Positions 4,725 to 18,878 of a stretch of 26,099 bases of DNA are shown here, piece after piece. The position numbers and the translations under genes are program-made. Under the pieces are notes generated by a model. It made no database searches. It saw nothing but the letters and a program-made list of their open reading frames with translations, and had not been told where the DNA came from. The first letter of the stretch is position 1. Each line of letters begins with the position of its first letter. The stretch covers positions 1-26,099 of IMG/VR virus record IMGVR_UViG_3300032315_000500. One strand, 5' to 3'. Source of the stretch: a virus.

Positions 4725-4732
4725 TATTTATC
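4725..4732 (-). promoter_or_regulatory. Late promoter octamer GATAAATA before the 208-aa gene
   Basis: Minus strand reads AAAAGATAAATACTC in the 86-nt gap after the gp16-like gene, 30 nt before the ATG. One base from TATAAATA; would give a short leader of roughly 25 nt. Confidence 0.65.
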
Positions 4733-4780: not shown

Positions 4781-5263
4781 TCATTCATCGTTTTTAGAGG
4801 TAAACATCTTGAGTAACTCATTGCGATCTAGTGATTTACCTTCGCCAAATGGAGTAGCTTCTACTTCCTCGTTCTTAGAAGCAAGCTTCATATCAAGTTG
4901 TGCTTTCTTAAGCTGTAAATCAAGCATCTTAAGTTTCTTATTGATTTTTGCAGTCTTAGCAGTGATGGCATGCCCTAACATTGTTCCGGCAGCAGAGAAT
5001 ATTTCACTAGAGAATCTAGCTTCGACTTGTAGGCCTAAATCTTGCAAATCTTTAAAGCTGTTAGTTGCTAGTTCTGCAAGAACATCTAATTCGTTATCCG
5101 CTTCTTCTAAATCTCGTACCAGGGGGAGTGCGGCCTCGATCTTTTCTAGATTGCTTAATGCAGTTTCTGTTACTTCACGAGTTGTTTCTGGCAACGGAAT
5201 AGTGAGTTCATTCTCTTCTGACGACGCCAAATCAAATAATTCTTCTAGTTTTTTGTTGCTCAT
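4781..5263 (-). CDS. 16: Terminase small subunit, gp16-like
   Basis: 160 aa, almost the length of T4 gp16 (164 aa). In T4 the small subunit forms a ring that binds DNA and stimulates the packaging motor gp17. The helical core, residues about 60-130, has the family layout: an A-x-L-A-x-x-S-x-x-DL helix, then EARFSSEIFSAAGTMLGHAI and KKLKMLDLQLKKA, which lines up with the R-x-x-EVF...GxM...KLxKxMxxL pattern of T4 gp16. The C-terminus (FGEGKSLDRNELLKMF) is a short charged tail that might contact gp17 or portal. It lies 12 nt after gp4 rather than beside gene 17, which is not in the window. There is no Shine-Dalgarno sequence; instead a late octamer ends 5 nt before the ATG. Identification rests on pattern, not a search. 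Confidence 0.65.
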   Translation of the reverse strand: MSNKKLEELFDLASSEENELTIPLPETTREVTETALSNLEKIEAALPLVRDLEEADNELDVLAELATNSFKDLQDLGLQVEARFSSEIFSAAGTMLGHAITAKTAKINKKLKMLDLQLKKAQLDMKLASKNEEVEATPFGEGKSLDRNELLKMFTSKNDE

Positions 5264-5268
5264 GCAAG

Positions 5269-5276
5269 TATTTAGC
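5269..5276 (-). promoter_or_regulatory. Late promoter-like octamer GCTAAATA 5 nt before gp16 start
   Basis: Directly after the gp4 stop codon the minus strand reads CTAAATACTTGC and then ATG. T4-type late transcription starts about 5-7 nt after the octamer, so the transcript would start at or next to the start codon. No AGGA-like site is seen upstream. Confidence 0.5.
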
Positions 5277-5710
5277 TACTTGCGCCCATTTCTGAACAAA
5301 TCGGACTCTGTGATTACTCGAAAAGAGAAGCCGTTGGCCTTGCAGTATGCTGCACAGGCCGCCCATTTGGCATGATTTATAGCTACGACCATTCTATCTT
5401 TTGCACTTGCTACTCTGCTTTCAATAACACTCTGCTTTTTTGGTTTAATCTCTACTATTTCTGCTAGCGTTCGTCCGTACTTATTTTGGTATACCACAAA
5501 GAAATCCGGAACATATATAGTGGGTTTGCCACTTAGTGGATGTTTATATGGAATTTTCATAGCTTCACTCGCCCAATGTAATATGTTATCGTTGCTGTCA
5601 AGAAATATCATCATTGACAATTCCCAAGAACTGCGATATCGTGGTGCGCGCTTTCCTATGTATTTCTCAGGATGTTTGGGAGTATATAACCCCTGCGCCC
5701 ACTTAGCCAT
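5276..5710 (-). CDS. 4: Head completion protein gp4, TnsA/PD-(D/E)XK nuclease fold
   Basis: 144 aa (T4 gp4 is about 150 aa). gp4 acts with gp50/65 on the packaged head before tail joining. The family pattern is clear: W-x-x-GLYTPKHPEKYIG, RYRSSWELSMMIFLD, WASEAMKIPYKHP, then YVPDF and VEIKPKK. These give a candidate nuclease triad of D69, E88 and K90, with E30 in the SSWE motif. The C-terminal NHAKWAACAAYCKANGFSFRVITE matches the conserved end of the family. The frame is open upstream to 5788, but the start at 5710 (MAKWAQG) has an AGAGGAAAT ribosome site and matches the family N-terminus, and the extension would overlap the previous gene. Stop codon abuts the gp16 late octamer. Confidence 0.9.
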   Translation of the reverse strand: MAKWAQGLYTPKHPEKYIGKRAPRYRSSWELSMMIFLDSNDNILHWASEAMKIPYKHPLSGKPTIYVPDFFVVYQNKYGRTLAEIVEIKPKKQSVIESRVASAKDRMVVAINHAKWAACAAYCKANGFSFRVITESDLFRNGRK

Positions 5711-5729
5711 ATTTCCTCTACTGTTGTTC

Positions 5730-6086
5730 TTACAAGACGACGTTACGTTGTACTGCTTCGTTAGGTTTAGGCAAGTTGCCGACTCCATACAGTGAAGCCT
5801 TTGACTTGTACGTATTCAGATAATAACAGATGATGCTATTCATTTGCAGCTTGTCGTCGGCACCTTTGATCGCTGATAATAGATTTTGTACATTATAATT
5901 TCCTTGCTGAGCGATTCTAAATAATATACTGGCTAAATTAGATGCGATCTGTTCAGTAGCAGATACTCCCTTGAAATACGAGAAAACGACATCGTATTCC
6001 GCAGCAGGAATTTCTAGCTTTAAACTGTAAAAGCTATCAAAGATTCGAATAGTTTGGTCGACTTGCTGTAATGATGTTATTGTCAT
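5730..6086 (-). CDS. 118-aa conserved phage protein of unknown function, likely virion-associated
   Basis: Helix-rich small protein with the pattern F-x-x-FYSLKLEIPAAEYDVVFSYFKG followed by QIASNLASILFRIAQQGNYNV and ICYYLNTYKSKASLYGVG, ending LPKPNEAVQRNVVL. I associate similar proteins with T4-like aquatic phages, next to structural genes, but cannot name a function. The frame extends to 6143, but the start at 6086 (MTITSLQQ) avoids overlap with the preceding gene and sits 5 nt after a late octamer. The 19 nt between the previous stop and this start contain no Shine-Dalgarno sequence. gp4 follows 19 nt downstream. Confidence 0.75.
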   Translation of the reverse strand: MTITSLQQVDQTIRIFDSFYSLKLEIPAAEYDVVFSYFKGVSATEQIASNLASILFRIAQQGNYNVQNLLSAIKGADDKLQMNSIICYYLNTYKSKASLYGVGNLPKPNEAVQRNVVL

Positions 6087-6091
6087 GTTAA

Positions 6092-6099
6092 TATTTATG
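6092..6099 (-). promoter_or_regulatory. Late promoter octamer CATAAATA 5 nt before the 118-aa gene
   Basis: Minus strand reads GAGCATAAATATTAAC then ATG. One base from TATAAATA, with exactly 5 nt to the start codon, the same geometry as at 5269 and 17141. No ribosome binding site is seen between the previous stop and the ATG. Confidence 0.55.
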
Positions 6100-6105
6100 C
6101 TCGGA

Positions 6106-7458
6106 CTAAATGAAGAACACGTCGTCAAACGGATCAGACGCATTACCGAATATATCAGGCTCGCCTGCTAATGAAGTACTATCGAATTCCTGAAAATTGC
6201 CAAAATCATTAGACGCATCTTCCCAGGCCCGATCGACATCTCCGAGAAACTCCGGTGTACTGCCATAATTTGGGTTACTGTAGAACGGATCGCTGAATAC
6301 CGAAGGGGGATTTCTTAACGCGTTTATTACTGGTGAATTCGCTAGCCCATGCGGTCCCGGAGATGATCCGGCGGACGGAAAAGAGAATGGACTATTTCTA
6401 CTAGTAGGAGTATTCCTTTCTGAATCTCTGAGCATAACGTTCAACCCACTTTCGTGGGACACATTTAGCCCAGGGAATTTTTCTGAATTATATGCAGTGC
6501 CTGATTTTAGAATATTGTTATAGTATTCTTCTTGTACTGGGCTTTCGAGTGATCCGCCGTCAGCATATACTAATCCACCTTTACCTAGTGTCATCGAATT
6601 AGATCCCGGAGGAGTGATAGGACTGAGTTCCCTGTCGTATGTGGCCGGATCTCCAAACCCAGCTACGACATTTTCTGGTTCTTGGCCATCTATGTTACCA
6701 TAATTATATACTACTGTTTCATAGTCTATAGTCATACTATTTTCCATGATGCCATTGCCCGAATCGTAGGTATAGGTGTCATGGCTAAAATTAGTTATGA
6801 CTGGATTAACTAACGTGTATGCTACAAAGCTATGCTGGTTAAATCCGAAAACAGTAATATTCTTAAAGAAAGGAACTTTTCTTGGAGTGTCAGTGTCCTG
6901 ATTAGTCTGGCCGCCGGCGAAGCCCCAATTCTCATCACCGCTTATAGATGGATTGTATAGATTGCTTTGATTGTAGTTGACAATTTCAGCTGGTGAGGAT
7001 CCCCTGGTGCCCTCAAACATGGTGCCAGACCTAGTACCGTCATTATAATAATAAGTGTAGTATGCTTCCCATAGTTTAGTCATCGTACTCTTGTTGTCGT
7101 CGTGAAATTTGATTTCAACCGTATCATATTTGATTTTTGATTGTGTAATTCTTTTTCTATTATACTGATTCATCGTATGAGTCTGAAGAGTGTATGATGG
7201 AAGTTTAACTTCTTTCACTAATAATCCAAAGTTTGCAGAGGTGTCTAATGTGCCTAAATTAGACATAGTATACGGAATAGCTGCTTCTGGGTTTATATTA
7301 AAATAAGTGTGAAAAAGAAATTTTAATTTAGGGGCATTGGCATAGGAATCTGACCTAAATGTTTTTGACGCATGAGTAAAATCTCTGAGGTAAGCGTTGC
7401 CGCTCCCGAAGGAGCCGGCAACGATATTTTGTAATATTTGTCCCCAATTACCTGACAT
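6106..7458 (-). CDS. Tail tube-like structural protein with Pro/Ser/Asn-rich C-terminal tail
   Basis: 450 aa. Residues about 40-150 carry the pattern LKFLFHTYFNINP ... LVKEVKLPSYTLQTHTMNQYNRKR ... KIKYDTVEIKFHDDNKSTM ... LWEAYYTYYYND, the signature I associate with gp19/gp54-type tube-fold proteins in T4-like phages, including the tube initiator at the baseplate. A second beta-rich part (residues 195-255, FGFNQHSFVAYTLVNPVITNFSHDTYTYDSG) completes the fold. From about residue 270 the chain becomes rich in P, S, N, G and D with no clear fold. It follows the gp19 tube gene by 23 nt, behind an AGGGA site, so it is probably co-transcribed. A gp54-like tube initiator or a neck/baseplate variant are both possible. 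Confidence 0.75.
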   Translation of the reverse strand: MSGNWGQILQNIVAGSFGSGNAYLRDFTHASKTFRSDSYANAPKLKFLFHTYFNINPEAAIPYTMSNLGTLDTSANFGLLVKEVKLPSYTLQTHTMNQYNRKRITQSKIKYDTVEIKFHDDNKSTMTKLWEAYYTYYYNDGTRSGTMFEGTRGSSPAEIVNYNQSNLYNPSISGDENWGFAGGQTNQDTDTPRKVPFFKNITVFGFNQHSFVAYTLVNPVITNFSHDTYTYDSGNGIMENSMTIDYETVVYNYGNIDGQEPENVVAGFGDPATYDRELSPITPPGSNSMTLGKGGLVYADGGSLESPVQEEYYNNILKSGTAYNSEKFPGLNVSHESGLNVMLRDSERNTPTSRNSPFSFPSAGSSPGPHGLANSPVINALRNPPSVFSDPFYSNPNYGSTPEFLGDVDRAWEDASNDFGNFQEFDSTSLAGEPDIFGNASDPFDDVFFI

Positions 7459-7481
7459 CTGATGTCCCTAAAATTTAAAAA

Positions 7482-8138
7482 TTAGAGACCGACACCCTGA
7501 GAAGCACCGATACCTGTTGCAGAACCGGTTGTGCCGCTAAGCACACGACCAACGTTAGCACCAACACCAGATCCAAGCGGCGCTTGAATTGCATTGTCAT
7601 ACCGAATTGATAGCGCAATCGAAACAGCCTCAGAGTTCGCGTAGTTGAGAGTTTGGTAGTTTGCTGACTTCAAGAAGCAACCATATAGTTCCCATGTTTC
7701 GAGTACAACTGGAGCATTAGCACCGTTACCACCATCAAGAATTTCGATGTTGGTTTGGAACTTGTAATCTTGACCAGTTGCAGCAGATGACTGCTCAACG
7801 AAGTCAAGTTGCTTTTGAAGTTGTTGCCCAACTGCTGCTGCAACGGTACCAGATGCATCGTCACGGATGTTGACGCTTAGCTCCTGCCAGGTATGCTTGC
7901 CCGCAAGATATATTCTTGAATTGTAAAGGTTCAATGTAACCTCATCGAACTGAACTTGTGGTCTTGCACAGTCTATGACTTGCTTAGTTAGACTAAGACC
8001 TGAAGCAGCGCCAATACCAAAGTTCAAGAAATTAACTCTAAATCTGAACTGTAATTTCGGCATCAACAGGCCTTGATTGCCGCCGGCATTATCAGATGCT
8101 ACGGTCATGTTGAATAAACTTTGGCTTGCTGTGGCCAT
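7482..8138 (-). CDS. 19: Tail tube protein gp19
   Basis: 218 aa (T4 gp19 is 163 aa). It is the major protein of the rigid inner tube through which DNA passes. The chain shows the expected start (FRVNFLNFGIG), the loop CARPQVQFDEVTLNLYNSRIY, then KHTWQELSVNIRDDASG, the YKFQTNIEILDG segment and VLETWELYGCFLKSANYQTLNYANSEAVSIALSIRYDNA in the last third, all in the order of T4-like tube proteins. A G/A/S-rich tail of about 25 residues follows. The start has a strong AGGAGATAT ribosome site. The late octamer is 33 nt upstream, and the sheath gene precedes it, as in T4 (18 then 19). Confidence 0.9.
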   Translation of the reverse strand: MATASQSLFNMTVASDNAGGNQGLLMPKLQFRFRVNFLNFGIGAASGLSLTKQVIDCARPQVQFDEVTLNLYNSRIYLAGKHTWQELSVNIRDDASGTVAAAVGQQLQKQLDFVEQSSAATGQDYKFQTNIEILDGGNGANAPVVLETWELYGCFLKSANYQTLNYANSEAVSIALSIRYDNAIQAPLGSGVGANVGRVLSGTTGSATGIGASQGVGL

Positions 8139-8171
8139 ATTATATATCTCCTGTTATGTGTTGTCGTAATG

Positions 8172-8179
8172 TATTTATC
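8172..8179 (-). promoter_or_regulatory. Late promoter octamer GATAAATA before tail tube gene
   Basis: Minus strand reads TTGATAAATACATT, 33 nt before the gp19 ATG and directly downstream of a 13-bp hairpin. Would give a leader of about 27 nt that includes the AGGAGA site. Confidence 0.65.
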
Positions 8180-8212
8180 AATGAAGTGAGTGATTTAGGC
8201 ACTCACTTCATT
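8180..8212 (-). terminator. Hairpin between sheath and tube genes, possible terminator
   Basis: A perfect 13-bp stem (AATGAAGTGAGTG with CACTCACTTCATT) with a 7-nt loop starts 5 nt after the sheath stop codon. It has no U-run, being followed at once by the GATAAATA octamer. It may be a weak terminator, an mRNA 3' end stabiliser or a processing signal that sets sheath to tube ratios. The hairpin is certain; its role is inference. Confidence 0.6.
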
Positions 8213-8217
8213 AATGG

Positions 8218-11200
8218 TTAACTTATTTGTGATGTGTTATTCAATACTATTCCTGTTGATCCTGCTTGATTCCCGATTTCGCCTGTGTTGAAAATACGAA
8301 CCGGAATGTAGATGAATTCAACTGCCTTAACGGGTTCAATCGCAACATCTACCCAGAGTTCATTTCTATCGATTCTTGCTGGGGTGTTATTAGATTCGTC
8401 ACACACCACCAAATAGTCGTAGACGCCTCTCTTAGCGACAAGATCAACTAGTAGAGTCTGTATAACACTACTGATCTGGCTTCTTGTATACGCGTCGTTT
8501 GGTTCAAACACGAAAGGTCTTGCTGCAATAGTTAACTGACGGCGAAGATATGCGACGAGTCTTGCTACGTTAACTCTGTCGAGAGCCGACTGTGAGTTGA
8601 AGCTTGACTTGTTGCCGTAATTTAACAATCCATTGCCAGTAAAGAAGACGATTGGGTTGATCTGGTTAGTATATAGTACGTCACGGATACCAATTCTCGT
8701 CTTGATAGAAATAAATTCGCCTGTAGTTGGGCTGATATAGCCGATGCTACTTGCGTTGTCGATGGTGCCCCGACGAGTACCAGCTGGAGCGAACCAAGGA
8801 TACGCAATCGCATCGTTTCTCAAGAAAGTTCTGATCATCATGTGTGATGGGGGAACTACAACTTGATTACCTTGGAGATCATTTGTGATGCCTGAAGGGT
8901 AGAACAACCCAAGATAAGAGTTGCGAGTGACCAGACCATCTTCACCGGTTTCAGAAGCACCGGCTGCGTTAGTTGCCCAGGCTTGAATTGCGGTCGCAGA
9001 ATCTGGAAGTCGCATTGGCGTATCACCGATGATAAATCCGGTTTCACCCCTATCTGCGTTGAGTGCGATCATATTTGGTTGTAGTTCAGGATAGTTAGGT
9101 GCAGCGATCAAGTTAAAGAAGTTGTCTTCATCACGTATCGCTGTATTACTATCAATCGCTGACTTCATCGCCTTGACGACCATTGCGCGTTGTGCTTTAC
9201 GACCCATATACGGGGCGCCGTTTGTTTGTAGTCCTGAATCACTGACCCATGCATCTTTTTCAGTAGGAAGAGATTCACCTGGGAAATTATCATTGTTAAA
9301 GTAATTTGCTTTAAATTTCTTTACGTTATAACCAGAACGTCGTGTGTTGAACAATAACATACCGACTGGGTATAGCGAGCTTTCAGGAGCATCGAGGTCG
9401 AGATAGTTGCTAGATAGTAAGCTTACGATGCTTGGGATCGGGTCGCTTGATGGATTTACTGTACCGCTAGTTGCCCATCGTGCGTCAGCGAACAACACGC
9501 CAGTTGAACTTGTCTGATCTGAATTGTTGATTAGTACCCAAGTACCAGTGCCATCAACAATTTGCCAGCGGTTGATAATCGGATAGTTATCTAGATCACT
9601 CGTGTCAATCCAGATATCGCCCGGAACTAAAGCAGTATCGTCTGACTGTACTGTGGGTGCAGTTGGACTTACTAATGGCCCTGCTGGATCAGTAGCGTTG
9701 ACACCTGTCGGAATAGGGAAACCGCTATTGTCGTAATTAGATATCTTATAGCCTCTCCAACCATTCGCGGTATTGACCATGATGTCAACTTCATCGATTA
9801 CTGAATAGAACCAATTAGTATCGTCTGCCGGGGCTTCAACTATAGCACCTTCATTGGCAGTCATATCAAATTGTGCCCAATTTGACAATTGCGTTGTATA
9901 ATTAGCAGGAGAAGATCCAGATATGTATGTTACTCCAGTCACAAATCCACCCGGATCGACTGAAGTAACTTCTACTACTAGGTTATTAGCCGGAGAAGTA
10001 CCACCGAACTGAGTTCCCGAGAAAGTTACCAGATTTCCAACTGTGTAGCCAGAACCTGCATTCACGAATGTATCTGGGTCTACGTAATATAGTTGATAGT
10101 CACTAATCACATTCAATACAAGACCGGTACCCGGACCCGAATTTACCGAAGTAGCAGTAGGAGTAAACGTTCCCGTAGCGAACGGACCATACTTGACACC
10201 CGTAGTAGTATTGATGACTAATCCAATCGCAGCACTTAAGCCATTGCTTACCCCATTGACGTAATCGTTGATAATGATCACGCCGCCTTCAGTGTGAGTG
10301 ATCGCGATGGCGCCGGTGTCAGTGACTGATGCAGTGGTGTACGGTATACCGGCAGCAGACCAAGCAGTCACAAACCCAGTCGCAGTCGCGTTGTCTGGAA
10401 CAGTCAATGTATACTCAGCACTTAACGATGAGCTTCCTGGAACCGACACTTGAACCTTTGACACATACGGTCCTGCTGTAAATGTAGGAGATGTATTAGT
10501 TCCGGTAACAGTTGTAGGCCCTTCCAAAAGTCGTTCCCAGTAATAAACAGGTCCTTGAGTCTGCCCATCGTATGCATATTGTGCATACACTGTTCCGGCG
10601 TCGATATTCTGTCCACCAGTAGAATCTATTGCTGCGGTGACTGCCCAGTCGCTATCAGCAACATTTACTGCTACCGGAAGCCAAACAGAAGAAAGGTTGT
10701 CCCACTGAGAGATTACCGGATCGAGTCCGTTGCCGGCGTTTCCGACCTTGAGCCAAACTGAACCTGTTGGACGAGCATAAGTTTGTCCTGCTTGCCACAA
10801 AGGCTGTTGTGCAGATGTACCATATGTAAATCCGGGTTGATAATAAGTACCAGCAGTGATTCCTAGATCAGCCAGTACAGTGTCAGTAGGATCGACATCT
10901 GCTGTAATAGTTAACGAGAGTGGTGTCGTTGACGTCGGACTCGCGCCAGCAGTTTGTTGTGAATAGATATTTAATTTACCACTTACTACTTCTGCGCTGA
11001 CATAAGTATAACCCAACGCATTGATCTGAGATGCGATATTTGCTACAGTGTTATTGGGGGATGAAGCAACTGTGATAGAGATATCGATATCGCCGTTGAT
11101 GCTGATGACAAAATTATCGCCTGTAGTGAGTGTTGGGTTGGCTTGTGTGCCTTGAATAGTTGGCCATGAGTTCAACCATGAACTGCTTCCTAGAACTACC

Positions 11201-11838
11201 CAAGTGTTAGAATTGTTTTTATAAAAATACTGACGAGCAGCGGGATCACTAGGTGCCGCATAACTAGGAATAGCGATTACTGCGTAATCACCAATTTGAC
11301 CTACGCTTTGTAACGGCGCGTTGCTCGAAATTAGAGCAGAATCGGTAATTACGATCGGCGACACTACACTGAACTTGCCAGTCGTCGCGTTGAATTCGTA
11401 AATACCCCATGCAGTTTGAGTAGTATCTAACCAATAGGTTCCATCAGCTGGATTACCAGAAGGGCGACCAGTTGATCCAACAAGTGAAGCAAGGTCGATG
11501 TCTGCTCTTAAGCAGTAAATAGTATTGGATGCACCCAATGCCGAATACGCCGCAAGAAGCCCGTATTCATTTAATTCATACCCTTGAATCGACGTACCGT
11601 TCGAAGTAGTATAAAAGAATGGATTGCCATATAAAGTAGTCAAGTCACGTTGACTAGTAACTCTGTACAACTTGCCAGCGTTTGCCGGAGTTGTTGCCGG
11701 TGCGATGCCTACCCCATTAGGGTCTGCTTTATTCGTTGCTGTTGCTAACACAACGAAGGGTATTGAATTTGTGGGTGCAGGGAGATACTGAGATTGATCA
11801 ATGATCGTTACCTCGACGCCCGGTGAAACTAATGCCAT
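8218..11838 (-). CDS. 18: Tail sheath protein gp18 with a ~650-residue insertion
   Basis: 1206 aa against 659 in T4. It forms the contractile outer sheath of the tail. Residues 1-125 match the family start (MALVSPGVEVTIIDQSQYLP ... PFVVLATATNKADPNG ... YELNEYGLLAAYSALGASN). The core resumes at about residue 780 and runs to the end: YPVGMLLFNTRRSGYNVKKF, FNLIAAPNYPELQPNMIALN, FEPNDAYTRSQISSVIQ, VAKRGVYDYLVVCDESNNTP and VEFIYIPVRIF. The insertion between is beta-rich and modular. It contains three W-centred segments (near residues 131, 356 and 740, e.g. PGDIWIDT) and GYTVGNLVTFSGTQFGG-type modules, probably displayed on the outside of the sheath. AGGA precedes the ATG by a suitable distance. 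A late octamer lies 69 nt upstream. Confidence 0.93.
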   Translation of the reverse strand: MALVSPGVEVTIIDQSQYLPAPTNSIPFVVLATATNKADPNGVGIAPATTPANAGKLYRVTSQRDLTTLYGNPFFYTTSNGTSIQGYELNEYGLLAAYSALGASNTIYCLRADIDLASLVGSTGRPSGNPADGTYWLDTTQTAWGIYEFNATTGKFSVVSPIVITDSALISSNAPLQSVGQIGDYAVIAIPSYAAPSDPAARQYFYKNNSNTWVVLGSSSWLNSWPTIQGTQANPTLTTGDNFVISINGDIDISITVASSPNNTVANIASQINALGYTYVSAEVVSGKLNIYSQQTAGASPTSTTPLSLTITADVDPTDTVLADLGITAGTYYQPGFTYGTSAQQPLWQAGQTYARPTGSVWLKVGNAGNGLDPVISQWDNLSSVWLPVAVNVADSDWAVTAAIDSTGGQNIDAGTVYAQYAYDGQTQGPVYYWERLLEGPTTVTGTNTSPTFTAGPYVSKVQVSVPGSSSLSAEYTLTVPDNATATGFVTAWSAAGIPYTTASVTDTGAIAITHTEGGVIIINDYVNGVSNGLSAAIGLVINTTTGVKYGPFATGTFTPTATSVNSGPGTGLVLNVISDYQLYYVDPDTFVNAGSGYTVGNLVTFSGTQFGGTSPANNLVVEVTSVDPGGFVTGVTYISGSSPANYTTQLSNWAQFDMTANEGAIVEAPADDTNWFYSVIDEVDIMVNTANGWRGYKISNYDNSGFPIPTGVNATDPAGPLVSPTAPTVQSDDTALVPGDIWIDTSDLDNYPIINRWQIVDGTGTWVLINNSDQTSSTGVLFADARWATSGTVNPSSDPIPSIVSLLSSNYLDLDAPESSLYPVGMLLFNTRRSGYNVKKFKANYFNNDNFPGESLPTEKDAWVSDSGLQTNGAPYMGRKAQRAMVVKAMKSAIDSNTAIRDEDNFFNLIAAPNYPELQPNMIALNADRGETGFIIGDTPMRLPDSATAIQAWATNAAGASETGEDGLVTRNSYLGLFYPSGITNDLQGNQVVVPPSHMMIRTFLRNDAIAYPWFAPAGTRRGTIDNASSIGYISPTTGEFISIKTRIGIRDVLYTNQINPIVFFTGNGLLNYGNKSSFNSQSALDRVNVARLVAYLRRQLTIAARPFVFEPNDAYTRSQISSVIQTLLVDLVAKRGVYDYLVVCDESNNTPARIDRNELWVDVAIEPVKAVEFIYIPVRIFNTGEIGNQAGSTGIVLNNTSQIS

Positions 11839-11907
11839 ATTCTTTTTCCTTTTGTAATATTCTAAGGTTTACCACCTGCCCTAGTACTGTACTAAGATTC
11901 TAATAAT

Positions 11908-11915
11908 TATTTAGC
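11908..11915 (-). promoter_or_regulatory. Late promoter octamer GCTAAATA before tail sheath gene
   Basis: Minus strand reads TTTTGCTAAATAATT, 69 nt before the sheath ATG. The predicted leader carries a 13-nt perfect palindrome (TAGTAC-N-GTACTA at 11882-11894) and an AAGGAAAAAG ribosome site. Confidence 0.55.
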
Positions 11916-11961
11916 AAAAGATATTAAAAAGTCGGCATAAGTACGCCTTCGAAGAGATTTT

Positions 11962-11969
11962 ACTAAATA
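11962..11969 (+). promoter_or_regulatory. Late promoter-like octamer ACTAAATA before the HNH-like gene
   Basis: Plus strand reads TTTTACTAAATAGTAT and then GTG. Only 4 nt separate the octamer from the start codon. It is divergent from the sheath octamer, with 46 nt between the two. Confidence 0.45.
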
Positions 11970-11973
11970 GTAT

Positions 11974-12330
11974 GTGAACCAAAGACCATTTTGTAAAAAA
12001 TGCAATAAAAATGCCTGTGCCATAAATTATACAAAAAACGGCATAGTACATTATCGCACCCATTGTCATAGGTGTGGAAAAAAAGAGCCTAATAAAAAAA
12101 CTTTGCCAAATAAATGGGAACAGTCTGGCTATAAAAAAAAATCCACATGCGATTGCTGTGGATTCAAAAGTACTTATGCAAGCCAAATGACAGTGTATTA
12201 TATAGACGGGAACTTAACCAACAACGCAGTGTCTAACCTCAAAACCATATGCCTCAATTGTGTCGAAGTTATAAAACGTCGAGAGGTCAAGTGGAAAAGA
12301 GGAGATTTAGTAGTAGATTGGCATACATAA
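11974..12330 (+). CDS. HNH-like zinc-binding phage protein
   Basis: 118 aa, GTG start (reads MNQRPFCKKC). Three zinc-knuckle pairs are visible, C7-x2-C10, C31-x2-C34 and C59-x2-C62, and a fourth, C93-x2-C96, near the end. The segment VYYIDGNLTNN...NLKTICLNC is the HNH endonuclease pattern (usually HHIDGxxxNN...NLxxLCxxCH), but the histidine before IDG is Tyr here (Y75/Y76), so nuclease activity is doubtful. Similar small proteins are frequent in T4-like aquatic phages with no proven role; DNA binding is a reasonable guess. It is on the opposite strand from its structural neighbours and its stop lies 4 nt from the convergent kinase stop. No Shine-Dalgarno sequence precedes it. Confidence 0.8.
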   Translation: MNQRPFCKKCNKNACAINYTKNGIVHYRTHCHRCGKKEPNKKTLPNKWEQSGYKKKSTCDCCGFKSTYASQMTVYYIDGNLTNNAVSNLKTICLNCVEVIKRREVKWKRGDLVVDWHT

Positions 12331-12334
12331 AATA

Positions 12335-12970
12335 TTACGATTGACCATTAAGCACAATCGCTTCTAATTGTCTATGTAATTCAGTTATTGTCTTGTTATT
12401 TGTTACTAAGAAGTCATGCGGTAGACCGACGCTGCTGTACTCGCTCTCATGTACATCAACTAGCTTCTCTAGGTACATTTCTCTCTGTACTATGCTTTCG
12501 GCCCTGTTGTACAATTCAGCATAGGGATACCATTCTGGATCAGGACCACGTTGTATTCTTATCGTTACCCCGCCGGCATTCTTGATCGCAGCAATTTCGT
12601 TGGGGAAGCGACAATCGGTTATCACGATATTATCCTTAATCTCCATCAATCGTCGGTTCAATGACATGACCCAAATAGAATCATGAAAACCTTTGCGGGC
12701 AACTTCTGTACCCCACTGCTGTAGTACCCAACGAGGGGTCAAGTGAGGAATACCCAACTGAGTAGCCCACCACTCATCTACTTGTTCCCGCCATTCTCTG
12801 CTTTCTTGAGTTTCTCCTTCTAATAGGATTCTATCCCAAGAAAAAATAACCGAAATAGCATCCTTCAATGTATCGGCAAATGCCATCTTTCGGAAACCAT
12901 AGTTTGTGGTTAAAATGTTGGCAACAGTAGATTTGCCAGAACCGATCAATCCGGTAACACCTATAATCAT
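12335..12970 (-). CDS. 1: Deoxynucleoside monophosphate kinase, T4 gp1-type
   Basis: 211 aa. This enzyme phosphorylates dNMPs to dNDPs with ATP to supply phage DNA synthesis. The Walker A loop GLIGSGKST is at residues 7-15, after a beta strand MIIGVT. A lid/acceptor region includes FADTLKDAISVIFSWDR and REWREQVDEWWA. LTPRWVLQQWGTEVARK is the conserved family segment around the acceptor site, and DNIVITDCRFPNEIAAIKNAGG holds the Walker B-like strand and the R/PNE motif shared with T4 gp1-like kinases. An AAAGGAG ribosome site is 6 nt upstream, and a sigma70-like promoter with an internal palindrome precedes it. Unlike nearby virion genes it lacks a minus-strand late octamer, consistent with early or middle expression. 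Confidence 0.88.
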   Translation of the reverse strand: MIIGVTGLIGSGKSTVANILTTNYGFRKMAFADTLKDAISVIFSWDRILLEGETQESREWREQVDEWWATQLGIPHLTPRWVLQQWGTEVARKGFHDSIWVMSLNRRLMEIKDNIVITDCRFPNEIAAIKNAGGVTIRIQRGPDPEWYPYAELYNRAESIVQREMYLEKLVDVHESEYSSVGLPHDFLVTNNKTITELHRQLEAIVLNGQS

Positions 12971-12988
12971 TAGTATCTCCTTTAGAAA

Positions 12989-13017
12989 AGCATACGTTAT
13001 TCAGCCGCTGAATGCAA
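12989..13017 (-). promoter_or_regulatory. Sigma70-like promoter of the dNMP kinase gene with a palindrome in the spacer
   Basis: Minus strand: -35 TTGCAT (13012-13017), 17-nt spacer, -10 TATGCT (12989-12994), about 18 nt before the kinase ATG. Most of the spacer is a perfect 13-nt inverted repeat TTCAGC-N-GCTGAA (13000-13012) that could be an operator. Confidence 0.5.
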
Positions 13018-13026
13018 GAGAAAAGG

Positions 13027-13034
13027 GATAAATA
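13027..13034 (+). promoter_or_regulatory. Late promoter octamer GATAAATA before the GIY-YIG gene
   Basis: Plus strand reads AAGGGATAAATAAAG, 60 nt before the GIY-YIG start at 13095; the leader includes a TGAGGAAC ribosome site. Confidence 0.5.
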
Positions 13035-13094
13035 AAGATGTAGTTCACGAGATTGGCGTCTCCAACTACTCTAATGCATTGAGGAACATCAGCA

Positions 13095-13715
13095 ATGATT
13101 ATTTATTTGTATAAGAAAACCCACAACAAAACCGGGCTACAATACCTCGGGAAAACCAAACTTGATCCTCTAAAATACCGCGGATCCGGCAAAGATTGGA
13201 CTCCCCATATTAAAGAACACGGGTATGATGTTTCTACTGAAATATTACGAGAATGCTTAACCAAAGAAGAACTAAGTTACTGGGGTAGGTATTATAGTAA
13301 GTTATGGAATATAGTTGAAGATCCGAACTGGGCTAATAAGATTCCAGAAACCGGTGGAGGCGGTGGGTCAGTAAAGGGTAACTTGCATCACATGAAACGC
13401 CCTGAAATGAGATTGGCTTTCGGTGATTCCCAAAGAGGAAAAAAGCATTCGCCAGAAAGATGTGCAGCAAATGCGGCCGGACAACGCGGGAAAACATACA
13501 CCAAAGAAGCAAAAAAGAAAAGATCGGATAAGCTCAAGGGAGCTAATCACCCCAACTATATAAAAACTCTATATAAGTTTGTTCATATCTCAGGGTTATC
13601 CGAAACTAGCACGATATATGATTTCTATACTAACCTAGGTCTTCCTCAGGGAAATGTGTGCCGGATGGTGCGTGGAGAGAGAAAGTCTGTTGCAGGATGG
13701 AGATTAGATTCGTAA
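13095..13715 (+). CDS. GIY-YIG family endonuclease, free-standing homing type
   Basis: 206 aa. The N-terminus IIYLYKKTHNKTGLQYLGKTK is a GIY-YIG nuclease core in which GIY is IYL and YIG is YLG (residues 17-19). It is followed by KYRGSGKDW with a candidate catalytic arginine at R29, and by the EELSYWGRYYSKLWN helix and a glycine run (PETGGGGGS). The middle (about 90-150) is basic and resembles NUMOD-like DNA-contacting segments (HHMKRPEMR, GKKHSPE, KRSDKLKG). The end (LPQGNVCRMVRGERKSVAGWRL) looks like a helix-turn-helix DNA-reading domain typical of Seg- or Mob-like enzymes. It sits on the plus strand between the minus-strand kinase and gp13 genes, as expected for a mobile intergenic endonuclease. 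Ribosome site GAGGAA is present. Confidence 0.8.
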   Translation: MIIYLYKKTHNKTGLQYLGKTKLDPLKYRGSGKDWTPHIKEHGYDVSTEILRECLTKEELSYWGRYYSKLWNIVEDPNWANKIPETGGGGGSVKGNLHHMKRPEMRLAFGDSQRGKKHSPERCAANAAGQRGKTYTKEAKKKRSDKLKGANHPNYIKTLYKFVHISGLSETSTIYDFYTNLGLPQGNVCRMVRGERKSVAGWRLDS

Positions 13716-13740
13716 CCTCATCCTCAAACTCAAGTTAGAT

Positions 13741-14526
13741 TTAGCCCTGTATCCATGTCAGGGGTTGCGATAGGTCCACATAATTCTTGAGGTCAAGCAA
13801 TAGTTGTTCTTGTGCCGCTTTAGATTCGGCTTTCATTGCAGTACCGTTCAATGTGGTTCCGCCGCCAGGACCTGCAATACTACCAAACTTTTCACGAGCT
13901 TCACCGATAATGCCCTTCAAGATTGCAATGATAAAGTCAGCAATCCAAACACCTGCGCCTGGGTCTTGGATAAGAACGGCTTCCGGGCGCTGAATGTCTG
14001 CCCAAATAAGAATTCTCTCGCCGGTGCCCTTGAAGTCACGGGTGATACGTAGAACCTTAGTGACTGGATCAAATGTATAGGTAAGATAGCCACCGAACAT
14101 TCTAGCCGCTAGTTCGACATACCCTGCATAAAAGTCATAGGTTGCCATACCACCTGTATAATTGTAATTCAATAGATAGGTGTTCAAAATTGCACTAGAA
14201 AACGGGTCGAATGAAGTTGATGACGGGCCTGTCTCAAGACCGACTGTTCGCCTAAACAATGCCCGCACGTTGATAAAGTCACTGGGAAGTGTATAGGTAT
14301 CCACATTTTTGACGACTGTCAATAGTGTATACGACTCCTGCACTGCGTTCTCAGCGCGCTGACGATAGACTTTGATCGCGTAATTATACGCTGCTTCATA
14401 GTGCTGAGGATCAATTTCTAAGTCGATGATATCACCGCCCAAACGAAGTCGGACGTTCTCGAACAGTGCTTCTTTAAGTTCTTCTAAATTATAATTCGTT
14501 GGCGTTGATAAGATGTTTGTTGACAT
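13741..14526 (-). CDS. 13: Neck protein gp13-like
   Basis: 261 aa (T4 gp13 is 309 aa). With gp14 it forms the neck that closes the head and binds the tail. It begins with a helix-rich domain (LKEALFENVRLRLGGDIIDLEIDPQHYEAAYNYAIKVYRQRAENA), then a beta-rich part, VQESYTLLTVVKNVDTYTLPSDFINVRALFRR, the usual order in this family. A segment with FAGYVELAARMFGGYLTYTFDP and GERILIWADIQRPEAVL follows. The C-terminal helical part (IADFIIAILKGIIGEAREKFG and AAQEQLLLDLKNYVDL) is also family-like. AGGAAAT lies before the ATG and a GATAAATA octamer is 19 nt upstream. Its usual partner gene gp14 is on the other strand 3 kb away. Confidence 0.72.
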   Translation of the reverse strand: MSTNILSTPTNYNLEELKEALFENVRLRLGGDIIDLEIDPQHYEAAYNYAIKVYRQRAENAVQESYTLLTVVKNVDTYTLPSDFINVRALFRRTVGLETGPSSTSFDPFSSAILNTYLLNYNYTGGMATYDFYAGYVELAARMFGGYLTYTFDPVTKVLRITRDFKGTGERILIWADIQRPEAVLIQDPGAGVWIADFIIAILKGIIGEAREKFGSIAGPGGGTTLNGTAMKAESKAAQEQLLLDLKNYVDLSQPLTWIQG

Positions 14527-14545
14527 AACATTTCCTCGATATGTT

Positions 14546-14553
14546 TATTTATC
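14546..14553 (-). promoter_or_regulatory. Late promoter octamer GATAAATA before gp13
   Basis: Minus strand reads CTTGATAAATAAAC, 19 nt before the gp13 ATG, leaving a short leader that carries GAGGAAAT. Confidence 0.6.
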
Positions 14554-14570
14554 AAGAAACACTATGACTC

Positions 14571-14765
14571 TTAGTTAGGCAAGATCATAGCGGGCGGGGG
14601 TCCGCAACGTTTGAACTCGAACTCACCGTTTTTTGGATTATACTGAGCAACGTCATGTTCGATAGCATCTATCTGTAAATTTGCAACAGTCATCCAACGA
14701 CCTAAAGTAAGTCCCAACGAAAGGCTGCACATACACAATGCAATAGTAAGTAGTGTCTTACTCAT
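14571..14765 (-). CDS. Small membrane-anchored protein, function unknown
   Basis: 64 aa. The first 24 residues (SKTLLTIALCMCSLSLGLTLG) are a hydrophobic signal-anchor-like segment with two cysteines. The rest is polar and includes DVAQYNPKNGEFEFK, a pattern I associate with many short phage proteins of unknown role. Its ATG overlaps the stop codon of the MazG gene as ATGA, so translation is coupled and it is very likely expressed. Could be an inner-membrane protein with a periplasmic tail; no function can be assigned. Confidence 0.7.
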   Translation of the reverse strand: MSKTLLTIALCMCSLSLGLTLGRWMTVANLQIDAIEHDVAQYNPKNGEFEFKRCGPPPAMILPN

Positions 14766-15169
14766 AGATCGCCTTCTTTACGGTTCTCGCTTTGAGTTAC
14801 ATCAAAAACGCCGCCCGGATATCGTGCTTCCAGCTTCTTGACGTTCTCTGTGATAACATCGCTAGGATCGAGCCCGAGTGCGTTACAGGCGTTCATCCAA
14901 TACCACATGATATCACCGAGTTCCCGCTTCAGATGGAAGATGTTTTCTTCGTTCAATGGCTTACCCTGGAATAAAATTTTCTTGACGATCTCCTGAAATT
15001 CTCCTCCTTCACTACCTAGCCCAGTCGATGCAGTCATGAGCAACGGAAGATTGACATTAGTAGTACTGTCAAGCTCCTTAAGATGGTCTACGAATGCTGC
15101 TAGGTCCCTGCTCTCTGGCGATGCTACTGCAAAAACAAAGTCGGCGTATTTGTTTAGATTGATATTCAT
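14762..15169 (-). CDS. MazG-like nucleotide pyrophosphohydrolase
   Basis: 135 aa. MazG-type enzymes hydrolyse NTPs or related nucleotides such as ppGpp to monophosphates; phages use them to shape host nucleotide pools. The metal-binding motif is E54-x2-E57-x2-E60 (GSEGGEFQE), with the second half E83-x2-D86 (RELGDIMWYW), the classic all-alpha NTP pyrophosphatase pattern. The C-terminus LDPSDVITENVKKLEARYPGGVFD is typical. AAAGGAAC precedes the ATG. A consensus-like sigma70 promoter lies just upstream. The ATGA overlap couples it to the small membrane protein. Confidence 0.9.
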   Translation of the reverse strand: MNINLNKYADFVFAVASPESRDLAAFVDHLKELDSTTNVNLPLLMTASTGLGSEGGEFQEIVKKILFQGKPLNEENIFHLKRELGDIMWYWMNACNALGLDPSDVITENVKKLEARYPGGVFDVTQSENRKEGDL

Positions 15170-15192
15170 TTTGGTTCCTTTAATATATCTAC

Positions 15193-15221
15193 ATCTTACA
15201 TGGTGAGTAGTTGAATGTCAA
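15193..15221 (-). promoter_or_regulatory. Sigma70-type promoter before mazG-like gene
   Basis: Minus strand: TTGACA (15216-15221), 17-nt spacer, TAAGAT (15193-15198), about 23 nt before the ATG. It starts about 13 nt after the stop codon of the 413-aa gene. Confidence 0.7.
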
Positions 15222-15234
15222 TAATTTTGGTCTC

Positions 15235-16476
15235 TTACCAAACTTTAAGAATTACCATATTCTGATTAAATCTACCATTCGGCACTGTAACTACAGACTT
15301 GATATCTCCGACCATTTTCCGAACAGCAGGGCGACTTGCCTTGTTAAACGCTGCCAAAAACTCGCCGGGCTTACGGATAGTTTTACTCATGCTCTTTTTC
15401 GTATCAAATCCTAGCACTGTGTTGCCCTTAACAAACAGACACTTGCTATAGTCATCTGCAACCAACCAGATAAGTTTACGCTTCTGCGTATCATATACAA
15501 AAGCCTCGGTCGAGTTATGCAGTTTTGTGGGATGTATACCGATCAGTTCCAGCTTGAGCGCAACGTCAGTGAACGACCTGCAGAACTTGAGCTTTGCTAC
15601 AGTACGCTCGACGGGAACGGGCTTCTTAACACGAACCTTCTTGACAGCTTTCTTGAGCGAAGCGTACCCGTTGAATTCAGCAATAATTTCTTCGACCAGC
15701 TTGATCGCATTCCTAAGTTGCATCTTCGAATAATTCGAATATGCTTCAGCAAGCTGCTCGCACTTGCCAGCCTGCACCTCGACGTACTCATCACGCAGCC
15801 TTTCCCAACGACGGATCATTGGAGAAAGATGTTGTGGCAGAATGTTGCGAGATTGTAGCTCACTAAGGACCCGGCGGGTTACCGAAAAATCTTTAGGTTT
15901 ATTTGAGATGAGGTATTCATCCCAGATAGCTTCGATTTCGCTACCTGCCTCATCTGCTTTTTCACGCATAATTTCTTGAATATTAGGACGATCAACTTTC
16001 TTGAAAGAAAGTACTTTTGCTTTCTGTTCTTGAGTAGTGACAGCATTGATTAGCTTGTCAACTTGTTGGTTGACGCGTTCAACTTCGCGCTCATTGAGTT
16101 CTAGTCCACGAACTGCCATGCGAGCAGTGAAGCCATGTGTTGGAATCATTTGATTGTCGGGGGCCCGACGAATGATTTTAGCTTTGTTTGGATCCTTCGC
16201 GTCAAGGTATTGGATCAAGAAATCTTTGGCTTCTTTGGGACCATAAAAGTGCGAGTACCAATTATATGCTAGGTTCAACGCAAACGCGCGCTTTTCTGGA
16301 TCAGGTTGACCATCAGAAAAATTAGGTTCGGTGCCATAATAGGTAAGGTCAGGGTCTTTAGGACACAAGTCTTTTACTAGAGTATTGGACGAGGCTGCTG
16401 CCTGACCCGGTCTACGAGGAGTTCTTGACTTCGGCGCCGCTTTGCGAGCGGTCGTTTTCTTGGCGCGATTAACCAT
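15235..16476 (-). CDS. 413-aa conserved T4-like phage protein of unknown function
   Basis: Starts with a basic, probably disordered tail (VNRAKKTTARKAAPKSRTPR). Residues 35-140 carry LTYYGTEPNF...AFALNLAYNWYSHFYGPKEAKDFLIQYL and HGFTARMAVRGLELNEREVERVNQQV, patterns I associate with proteins of several T4-like and Rhizobium phages, none characterised to my knowledge. The middle is helical and rich in charged residues, and the C-terminus (residues 300-413) looks like a separate mixed alpha/beta domain with KLKFCRSFTDVALKLELIGIHP and KLIWLVADDYSKCLFVKG. AGGAAGAC lies before the ATG. A sigma70 promoter with TTGACA and TATACT suggests early or middle expression. DNA or RNA binding is possible given the basic tail but not shown. 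Confidence 0.8.
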   Translation of the reverse strand: MVNRAKKTTARKAAPKSRTPRRPGQAAASSNTLVKDLCPKDPDLTYYGTEPNFSDGQPDPEKRAFALNLAYNWYSHFYGPKEAKDFLIQYLDAKDPNKAKIIRRAPDNQMIPTHGFTARMAVRGLELNEREVERVNQQVDKLINAVTTQEQKAKVLSFKKVDRPNIQEIMREKADEAGSEIEAIWDEYLISNKPKDFSVTRRVLSELQSRNILPQHLSPMIRRWERLRDEYVEVQAGKCEQLAEAYSNYSKMQLRNAIKLVEEIIAEFNGYASLKKAVKKVRVKKPVPVERTVAKLKFCRSFTDVALKLELIGIHPTKLHNSTEAFVYDTQKRKLIWLVADDYSKCLFVKGNTVLGFDTKKSMSKTIRKPGEFLAAFNKASRPAVRKMVGDIKSVVTVPNGRFNQNMVILKVW

Positions 16477-16507
16477 ATTAGTCTTCCTTTTCCGACTCTA
16501 CTTATGC

Positions 16508-16536
16508 AGTATACATAGTTGACAGCATAATGTCAA
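16508..16536 (-). promoter_or_regulatory. Sigma70-type promoter before the 413-aa gene
   Basis: Minus strand: TTGACA (16531-16536), exact 17-nt spacer, TATACT (16508-16513), about 31 nt before the ATG. The -35 box contains the TGA stop codon of the upstream 39-aa ORF. Confidence 0.8.
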
Positions 16537-16652
16537 GCCCTGATGCGATCCCCGTGCTTACCGAGAGGAATCATAATAACATAGAGTTGACCATCGATCT
16601 CGAACCCGCGATAATACATACCCTTGATAGTGACCAAACGATGCTTATTCAT
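16533..16652 (-). CDS. 39-aa small ORF, function unknown
   Basis: Reads MNKHRLVTIKGMYYRGFEID and then a second beta-like stretch (GQLYVIMIPLGKH) ending GDRIRA. The ATG lies 1 nt after the stop codon of the 133-aa gene (TGATATG), and a G-rich GGGGGT precedes it, as in coupled phage genes. No known family is recognised. The even, beta-strand-like hydrophobic pattern and tight coupling argue for a real small protein, but its short length leaves doubt. Confidence 0.5.
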   Translation of the reverse strand: MNKHRLVTIKGMYYRGFEIDGQLYVIMIPLGKHGDRIRA

Positions 16653-16653
16653 A

Positions 16654-17055
16654 TCAGACCCCCATCATCTTGGCAAGAGTGCCATACTTCAAGCCGAACG
16701 TATAGTCGGCATATTCGAGACCGTAATGGGCCAAATCTTCCTCTGAAATATTTTGTGCCTGCATCATGATGCGGATGACATCGATCTTACTAGCACGGGG
16801 CATAATAGACAAAATTTCCGCAACGCGCGCCTCGAACTGTTCCCGGGCTTCTTGTTGCTCGCGGATATTGCGATCCATAATAGAATCCAAATCAGCTTGT
16901 GCGCGCGCCCAAGCACGGTCGAAATCCGCCATATCAGCAAATTCGCAGGCGAGGCCGCGGGGGCGATATCCATAAGCATCCTTATGCAGGTCCGAATAGA
17001 CCGAACCTCTGAATTCACCCGGGAACATATCGTTGATTTCACGAAGAGTGATCAT
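16654..17055 (-). CDS. 133-aa conserved phage protein of unknown function
   Basis: Begins MITLREINDMFPGEFRGSVY and SDLHKDAYGYRPRGL, a pattern I recognise from many unrelated phage hypotheticals that carry a YSD-x-x-K-x-x-YGxRPRG-type segment. A coiled helical middle follows (FDRAWARAQADLDSIMDRNIREQQEAREQFEARVAEIL). The end (LEYADYTFGLKYGTLAKMMGV) is probably a short alpha/beta cap. No catalytic motif is visible. Start chosen at 17055 behind AAAGGCAG. It is the first gene behind a good sigma70 promoter and is followed by the 39-aa ORF. Confidence 0.78.
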   Translation of the reverse strand: MITLREINDMFPGEFRGSVYSDLHKDAYGYRPRGLACEFADMADFDRAWARAQADLDSIMDRNIREQQEAREQFEARVAEILSIMPRASKIDVIRIMMQAQNISEEDLAHYGLEYADYTFGLKYGTLAKMMGV

Positions 17056-17090
17056 GTGCTTGCTGCCTTTCGAGTCAATCTCTATAATTC

Positions 17091-17119
17091 AATATAACAA
17101 AACGGGTACCTAATGTCAA
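17091..17119 (-). promoter_or_regulatory. Sigma70-type promoter before the 133-aa gene
   Basis: Minus strand: TTGACA (17114-17119), 17-nt spacer, TATATT (17091-17096), about 35 nt before the ATG. It is divergent from the plus-strand late octamer of gp14 at 17141. Confidence 0.75.
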
Positions 17120-17140
17120 CTGTTATTATCCAAAAATAAC

Positions 17141-17148
17141 GATAAATA
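17141..17148 (+). promoter_or_regulatory. Late promoter octamer GATAAATA 5 nt before gp14-like start
   Basis: Plus strand reads AACGATAAATAAAGAT then ATG. Five nt separate octamer and start codon and no Shine-Dalgarno sequence is seen, the same arrangement as at 5269 and 6092. Confidence 0.6.
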
Positions 17149-17153
17149 AAGAT

Positions 17154-18878
17154 ATGCCTCGTTTATCACTTTACAGACCTAATAAGCAAGACGATTACAG
17201 ATTCCTAGATCGCACGATCTCAGAGATGCTGACGGTCGGCGGTACCGATTTGTATATCCACAAGTATGCGGGCATAACGAATCAAGGGCCATCTATTGAC
17301 GCTACGCAGCCGCAGTATTTAGAACCCGATCCTACTCAGATTCAGGACTTGTTGTTTCTTGAGAACAGAGACAGAAAGTATGATTCAAACATCTATCGCT
17401 TGCGCGGTCACTACTCCGTACAGAACCTCGATTTCGATCTAAGCCAGTTCGGCTTGTTCCTGAATAATGATATTATCTTTGTCACCGTACACTACAACGA
17501 CATGATTGACATCGTAGGTAGAAAATTAATGGTCGGTGATGTACTAGAACTACCGCACTTACTAGATTACAATCCGCTCAAAGAAACCATACCCACTGCA
17601 TTGAAAAGATTCTATCAGATAACTGATTCAAACTATGCGAGTGAAGGGTTCTCGAACACTTGGTATCCGCATCTATGGCGTATCAAATGTGAGCCTCTTG
17701 TTAACTCACAAGAGTTTACTGATATCCTTAAAGAACCAATCGAACAAGATAATTATCTCGGTGATTGGGACAAAGACAAAACTTATCCACCCGGATACAC
17801 TATCGCATACGGTGATAAGATTTATGAATCGATCAAAGATGTTCCTTCTGGAATCAATCCTCCTAATAGTGAATATTGGAGACCCATTGACAACGGAAGT
17901 CTTTCTGATATCCTGTCAGCATACAATACGAACATTTCAATCAATGATGCCGCGCTACAAGAAGCCGCTCGTCTCGTGCCTAAATCTGGTTATGATGTAA
18001 GCAAATTATACGTGGTTCCAACATATGGCGAATTTCAGGCAAATGGTATTCCTTCTGGAAAACTAAATCAGCCTGCTCCTCCTATCAATATCATAACTAA
18101 TGCTCCAGGCACTACTGTTCCTACAGGAACAGTAGTGTTCATGCGTAATCCTAAGTATAAAAACCCAAGCGCAGGGATTAAAGTTTCTAAAGAAGCACTC
18201 AAGAGTATCTGGGACATGACTGCCGATGACGATCATATATCAGATAAGATCGACAAGTTTGTTCAAGCAAGTTTACAAATAGTCGAAGAACTACCAGAGA
18301 TGACAGACAGCGGATCTGGCTCAGTAGAGACTACTAAAATGCTTTCGGTTCATTCATTGGGAATAGTTACCGGACCATATGGCACCGCTGACAATACATA
18401 TGCTACCGCTGATCAGAATCCAGAATTACCTGGCTTTACCGGAACACAACCGTACGGTCCAGACACTATGGATTATCGTGCAGACTGCGACCCTAGATAT
18501 CAATTTATCGCTCGCCAAAGTCCAAGATCATTTGGATATCTAACTGGTTACCTAACTGGTGATGGACAAGCTCCAAATGGTTATCCGACTGGTGCAGGAA
18601 TATCATTTCCTCAAAATCCACAAGTGGGTGACTACTTCTTGCGAATTGATTATATGCCGCAGATTTTATATCGGTGGGACGGAGTTCTTTGGGTAAGAAT
18701 TTCAGAAAATGTAAGAACTGAAACCGGATATGGATTAAACGACAAGTCATTGAAGTCGAGCTTTATTAATGATCAAGCCCAAATCTATCTAAATAACAGT
18801 GATAAGTTTGTATCGGAAGCGCAACCACTATCGTCTATACTACAGCCACCGAAACCAGTTCTTCCACCAAGAGTATAA
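17154..18878 (+). CDS. 14: Neck protein gp14-like, enlarged with extra modules
   Basis: 574 aa against 256 in T4. gp14 joins head and tail with gp13. Residues 1-190 resemble the family: TISEMLTVGGTDLYIHKYAG near the start, a segment SQFGLFLNNDIIFVTVHYN, then GRKLMVGDVLELPHLLDYN and LWRIKCEPLVNS, in the same order as T4 gp14 and its cyanophage relatives (GVEVYY...GDLIYFP...KCE). At residues 201-243 is a WDKDKTYPPGYTIAYGDKIY segment of the carbohydrate-binding-like (CBM5/12-type) pattern, ending NSEYW. Residues 245-480 are beta-poor linkers and at 489-518 is GDYFLRIDYMPQILYRWDG...W. Start at 17154 is directly behind the octamer. Next gene starts 1 nt after the stop. gp14 assignment is likely but not certain. 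Confidence 0.68.
   Translation: MPRLSLYRPNKQDDYRFLDRTISEMLTVGGTDLYIHKYAGITNQGPSIDATQPQYLEPDPTQIQDLLFLENRDRKYDSNIYRLRGHYSVQNLDFDLSQFGLFLNNDIIFVTVHYNDMIDIVGRKLMVGDVLELPHLLDYNPLKETIPTALKRFYQITDSNYASEGFSNTWYPHLWRIKCEPLVNSQEFTDILKEPIEQDNYLGDWDKDKTYPPGYTIAYGDKIYESIKDVPSGINPPNSEYWRPIDNGSLSDILSAYNTNISINDAALQEAARLVPKSGYDVSKLYVVPTYGEFQANGIPSGKLNQPAPPINIITNAPGTTVPTGTVVFMRNPKYKNPSAGIKVSKEALKSIWDMTADDDHISDKIDKFVQASLQIVEELPEMTDSGSGSVETTKMLSVHSLGIVTGPYGTADNTYATADQNPELPGFTGTQPYGPDTMDYRADCDPRYQFIARQSPRSFGYLTGYLTGDGQAPNGYPTGAGISFPQNPQVGDYFLRIDYMPQILYRWDGVLWVRISENVRTETGYGLNDKSLKSSFINDQAQIYLNNSDKFVSEAQPLSSILQPPKPVLPPRV

Follow-up and report, generated by a model that had tools for sequence, protein, structure and literature searches.

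The window analysed here is a 26,099-base IMG/VR record (IMGVR_UViG_3300032315_000500), a fragment of a T4-like jumbo phage whose tail sheath protein is nearest to those of Phosso, Munch and RaK2-type phages. Four of its genes are preceded, at 4–5 nucleotides (nt), by an octamer resembling the T4 late promoter, and at all four sites a Shine-Dalgarno (SD)-like sequence is absent just upstream of the start. The octamers, each followed by its gene, are as follows.

5276–5269, minus strand: putative late-promoter octamer GCTAAATA, followed by CTTGC and the ATG at 5263, 5 nt before the start of gene 4781–5263
4781–5263, minus strand: gene of 160 amino acids (aa), phrog_16202 (family of unknown function), predicted to be leaderless
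6099–6092, minus strand: putative late-promoter octamer CATAAATA, followed by TTAAC and the ATG at 6086 (5-nt spacer)
5730–6086, minus strand: 118-aa gene without a family match, predicted to be leaderless
11962–11969, plus strand: putative late-promoter octamer ACTAAATA, followed by GTAT and the GTG at 11974 (4-nt spacer)
11974–12330, plus strand: HNH endonuclease-like gene, phrog_10822, with a GTG start, divergent from the tail sheath gene, predicted to be leaderless
17141–17148, plus strand: putative late-promoter octamer GATAAATA, followed by AAGAT and the ATG at 17154 (5-nt spacer)
17154–18878, plus strand: 574-aa virion structural protein, phrog_11591, in the gp14 position, opening a plus-strand unit, predicted to be leaderless

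The first-pass annotation of this DNA had reported the four octamers at 5, 5, 4 and 5 nt from starts without an SD sequence, and our analysis confirms these placements. The hexamer TAAATA itself occurs at about the level of chance in the window (25 found vs 24 expected), so the non-random part is its placement. Specifically, TAAATA lies 4 or 5 nt before the start in 4 of the 27 window genes, vs 0.026 expected (p = 2e-8). Two of the earlier gene labels fared less well. No profile supports calling the 160-aa gene ‘gp16-like’, as it matches phrog_16202 only and no Pfam family, while the ‘gp14-like’ label of the 17154 gene holds for position only, just upstream of a gp15 homologue (PF16724).

Other octamers of the window are leadered and accompanied by an SD sequence, namely those of genes 4068–4694, 7482–8138, 13741–14526 and 22419–22934 and one near 1200. 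These serve as comparators.

4725–4730, minus strand: leadered late-promoter core of the 208-aa gene 4068–4694, 30 nt and an SD sequence before the ATG at 4694
8172–8177, minus strand: leadered late-promoter core of the tail tube gene 7482–8138, 33 nt and an SD sequence before the ATG at 8138
14546–14551, minus strand: leadered late-promoter core of the head-tail adaptor gene 13741–14526
22959–22964, minus strand: leadered late-promoter core of gene 22419–22934

Relatives were taken from IMG/VR loci encoding homologues, and their upstream regions were compared once duplicates had been removed. TAAATA lies 4–5 nt before the ATG in 43 of 52 unique upstreams of the 160-aa gene, and the same spacing is found in 30 of 35 unique relatives of the HNH gene and in 71 of 80 unique upstreams of the 17154-type gene (phrog_11591; 46/50 in a smaller set). 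The large terminase, encoded outside the window, has TAAATA at 4–6 nt in 59 of 66. The comparators keep their leaders just as faithfully: none of the unique relatives is leaderless for the tail tube (0/52; leadered with SD in 52/52), the head-tail adaptor (0/36; leadered in 36/36) or the 208-aa gene (0/46; leadered in 46/46). The conserved spacing that the first-pass annotation had proposed to look for in relatives thus holds for three genes, in most cases without an SD sequence, and only in part for the 118-aa gene, whose 56 unique relatives comprise 29 with leaderless spacing, 12 leadered and 15 without the element. Variable spacing together with an SD sequence, which would speak against a leaderless mode, is seen only as exceptions, such as 11 of the 12 leadered 118-aa relatives.

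Protein similarity begins at, or a few residues from, the predicted starts, and most leadered isolates and relatives use the same aligned ATG for the 17154 gene, indicating that its start codon is correct. ATG stands at the matching 4–5 nt spacing in 29 of the 30 leaderless-type HNH relatives, with GTG in the HNH genes of the window and of locus L004. The HNH site of the window is therefore homologous and real, and discarding it on account of its GTG start was rejected. Relatives that depart from leaderless spacing usually adopt the full alternative of a longer spacer and an SD sequence, as would be expected if a gene takes one of two modes. Several 17154-type relatives without a leaderless site (L086:3001, L163:3001, L289, L291 and L293) carry a strong SD sequence (GGAG) followed by AUU at the aligned start, and another (L290) has a TTG start.

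The distance from TAAATA to ATG was profiled in four large uncultured relatives (360, 259, 244 and 100 kb; 1085 predicted open reading frames) and in a cultured set of T4, PA5oct, Phosso, Munch and Atu_ph07 (1379 genes). In the four relatives the distribution is bimodal: 49 genes at 5 nt and 14 at 4 nt form a spike, which a sparsely populated stretch at 6–16 nt separates from a hump at 17–26 nt. The 5-nt spike exceeds a background of ~3.7 genes per position (P = 5e-37). When all hexamers were scored at all offsets without prior choice, TAAATA at 5 nt ranked first in the four relatives, above the SD words (p = 5e-27), whereas the top-ranked words in the five isolates were all SD-like. The cultured genomes have 4 of 1379 genes at 4–5 nt and 117 at 16–30 nt, compared with 63 and 120 in the clade, and in T4 an ATG lies 4–6 nt from TAAATA in 0 of 207 genes (160 kb examined). 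The spacing is therefore not a general trait of T4-like jumbo phages. A chance match in an A+T-rich genome was also rejected: permuted hexamers have no comparable spike, except for ATAAAT at 6 nt and a smaller rise of AAATAT at 4 nt, both of which overlap the same motif. In a plain pattern count, the relative G001 has 28 matches vs 2 for the reversed control, and isolates are not consistently above controls.

The two classes of site also differ in their translation signals. An SD sequence is present in 82 of 115 leadered genes of the four relatives, vs 5 of 49 genes with 5-nt sites and 0 of 14 with 4-nt sites. GTG and TTG occur at 4–5 nt from TAAATA at chance level, vs 63 ATG; apart from the HNH genes of the window and L004, AUG is strongly preferred as the start at leaderless-type sites.

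Sequence context suggests that the octamers are T4-type late promoters. They resemble the T4 octamer TATAAATA and lack −35 conservation, and each of the four relatives larger than 200 kb (G001–G004) encodes a gp55-family sigma (phrog_234; E 5e-23 to 3e-22), the gene lying outside the 26-kb window. In clade sites the first T of TATAAATA is usually replaced, and the first two positions often hold GA or another pair that is not TA. Leaderless-type and leadered sites have the common flanking context (G)(A)TAAATA(C). In the 50 nt upstream of 17154-family genes, conservation is dominated by the octamer region; the −1 base is also highly conserved, and a weaker T-tract lies at −20 to −16.

The T4 late octamer spans −13 to −6 (PMC2988020), which would place +1 at the sixth base past the octamer, namely the A of ATG at 5-nt spacing. 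The first-pass annotation had likewise placed start sites at the start codon or beside it, and the T4 geometry predicts the same +1. At 5-nt sites, 44 of 49 genes have a pyrimidine just before the ATG, vs a background of 313/727 (43%; p = 1e-11). An initiator with a +1 purine would show this bias if transcription began on the A of ATG. In the leadered class, pyrimidine-purine steps are commonest at bases 4|5, 5|6 and 6|7 past the core; thus, 4- and 5-nt spacings would both put +1 on or adjoining the start codon.

We propose, with a probability of about 0.85, that gp55-type late promoters are fused to start codons in this phage and yield leaderless late mRNAs. The earlier suggestion of a leaderless mode for some late genes gains strong support from the genome-wide spike, the −1 pyrimidine and the lack of a spike in the five cultured genomes. 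Specifically, the four octamers would be −10-like elements read by a gp55-family sigma, and host RNA polymerase, directed by a promoter 4–5 bp before the start codon, would start RNA at or within one nucleotide of the codon's first base. The resulting late mRNAs would be leaderless and lack an SD sequence, and ribosomes presumably initiate at the start codon that forms the 5' end, with no SD pairing, as is established for leaderless mRNAs in other systems. The same promoter element, typically 17–33 nt upstream and with an SD sequence, would serve other late genes of this phage. We infer both the true 5' ends and initiation by 70S ribosomes or on a 5'-AUG. Phage-encoded bS21 or IF3 was not found in the clade records searched, and host factors are therefore presumed to act in initiation. 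Among cultured phages, ribosomal protein bS21 (PF01165) is encoded by PA5oct (170985–171143) and Phosso (389762–389905).

Several points weigh against this proposal. Only about half the relatives of the 118-aa gene retain the spacing. With an octamer at −13 to −6 there is scant space for an SD sequence, so that the missing SD is not independent evidence. GTG is a poor leaderless start, and the HNH gene of the window starts with GTG. Genes inside operons could have an additional, leadered read-through mRNA; this is less likely where the neighbour lies on the opposite strand, as it does for the 17154 and HNH genes. A search for the host through a collection of bacterial and archaeal genomes yielded no relative. 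The T4 family profile of the sliding clamp gp45 (phrog_223) matched nowhere, in a search that lacked a positive control and is uninformative.

One alternative is that leaderless-type transcripts are minor and that translation occurs mainly by coupling on polycistronic mRNA initiated upstream, with the promoter boosting downstream RNA. The arrangement of many genes would allow this, as the upstream neighbour is on the same strand for 43 of the 63 leaderless-type genes of the four genomes, and the 160-aa gene starts 13 nt past the stop of the preceding gene. We nevertheless consider it quite unlikely, because 15 of the 63 lie behind an opposite-strand gene, as do two window genes with some of the best-conserved spacings, 17154 and HNH. 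The divergent promoter beside the 17154 gene, which has no co-directional gene directly upstream, is the following.

17091–17119, minus strand: sigma-70-like promoter TTGACA-17-TATATT of gene 16654–17055, divergent to the 17154 gene

Very unlikely, too, is that TAAATA acts as a translation element, an A/U-rich, unstructured site for the ribosome or S1, on an ordinary longer mRNA and is not a promoter there. Leaderless-type genes of the clade often lie 20–36 nt behind a same-strand gene, which makes longer mRNAs possible, and their sites lack an SD sequence. However, their context matches that of the leadered late promoters, their spacing equals the promoter-to-start distance and the −1 base is a pyrimidine; the 17154 gene and its neighbour diverge, the octamer dominates conservation upstream of the 17154 gene, and the isolates have the same core upstream of the 17154-type gene as a leadered promoter. 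That the sites arose by chance or from mis-called starts, with true starts downstream behind their own SD sequences and normal leaders, is hardly credible: the window alone offers just four sites, one of them with GTG, but the placement statistics of window and relatives, the extent of protein similarity and the starts shared with leadered relatives and isolates already contradict it.

Fusion of late promoter and start codon is predicted for a defined set of genes. Leaderless placement is found for the large terminase, the phrog_11591 and phrog_12928 virion structural proteins, HNH and homing endonucleases and a baseplate wedge protein that resembles gp25 by a weak Pfam match; the leadered genes of the clade include tail tube, portal and a large baseplate wedge protein. 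When orthologs were paired across the four profiled genomes, both members were leaderless in 41 pairs and both leadered in 69, and 5 pairs were mixed. In a tree of the 17154-type protein, the uncultured clade and the cultured phages separate with 100/97 support. Most members of the clade are leaderless (73/81), and the cultured phages are leadered or without a close element. The leadered and AUU forms are scattered within the clade, which suggests several later switches, although inner forks are often weak.

Replacement of the leaderless site by SD and AUU in 17154-type relatives apparently occurred in at least two lineages. AUU starts are rare and IF3-sensitive, and IF3 discriminates against both AUU starts and leaderless mRNAs. 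On a speculative and rather doubtful reading, selection would thus hold the 17154-type gene under IF3-sensitive initiation, and genes of the leaderless late set would make up a translational class requiring a ribosome state of late infection, for example low IF3 activity or free 70S. If true, IF3-sensitive initiation would be a second, translational timer or output control above the late promoter.

The predicted arrangement resembles T4 late promoters (TATAAATA; dependent on gp55, gp33 and gp45) in its −10-like TAAATA core, in the gp55-family sigma of large relatives, in serving late structural and packaging genes and in having no other apparent upstream element. It differs in that T4 late genes have leaders, whereas the clade core is 4–5 nt (terminase up to 6) from the ATG. 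The cultured jumbo relatives PA5oct (Pseudomonas), Phosso (Sinorhizobium), Atu_ph07 (Agrobacterium), Munch (Salmonella), GAP32 (Cronobacter) and XaC1 (Xanthomonas) have a 17154-type homologue with upstream TAAATA, and PA5oct, Phosso and Munch, where searched, have a gp55 homologue; however, their TAAATA lies ~19–31 nt before the ATG, usually with a recognisable SD sequence, and the genomes profiled have no 4–5 nt spike. A large uncultured T4-like group has this promoter placement, predicted to give leaderless mRNAs, for a specific set of late genes; T4 and the other surveyed cultured relatives do not use it.

Leaderless phage transcripts are known from lambda cI and Thermus P23-45. A passage of the AR9 paper (PMC5312081) states, with a reference, that other phages have such transcripts. 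All of these share with the proposed transcripts that they are leaderless phage mRNAs and differ in involving other RNA polymerases or sigma factors. In bacteria, a TA-like element ~10 bp before the start codon without an SD sequence marks leaderless or ‘TA-led’ genes and is a published sequence criterion for them (Zheng et al. 2011, PMC3160421; mycobacteria, PMC4633059). There the element is the −10 box of a host sigma, whereas that of the clade would be a phage late promoter, in a mode restricted to a subset of late genes and conserved for each gene individually. No description of leaderless T4-type late genes was found in the open-access literature, most subscription papers being outside the search.

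In T4 late transcription, a textbook system, the promoter is distinct from the ribosome site; the two appear to be fused in a common environmental T4-like group. The fusion would span packaging, neck, baseplate and endonuclease genes of at least five gene families in many relatives, while tail tube, portal and others keep a leader and SD sequence. A clear sequence criterion, a matched internal control (the same promoter on leadered genes) and natural switches of mode make it testable why a phage would opt for leaderless translation. Gene finders that reward SD sites may mis-call these starts.

Gene 23706–25610 contains five TAAATA matches at 23914–24486 (minus strand), ~141–144 nt apart inside a single open reading frame. 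This series suggests a tandem coding repeat of ~47 codons, and the matches are probably not promoters. The gene preceding the 160-aa gene (5276–5788, minus strand) matches PF08722 (TnsA-like endonuclease N terminal) and phrog_218 (head closure). A homing-endonuclease-like gene (13095–13715, plus strand; phrog_314) lies between the deoxynucleoside monophosphate kinase and head-tail adaptor genes. In relatives, the palindrome ACCTTCGAAGGT (variants ACCTTTAAAGGT and ACCTTCAAAGGT) is kept a short distance upstream of the HNH late promoter, in the stretch that separates this promoter from the divergent tail sheath gene; the window has a degenerate copy, CGCCTTCGAAGAG, at 11944–11956 (plus strand).

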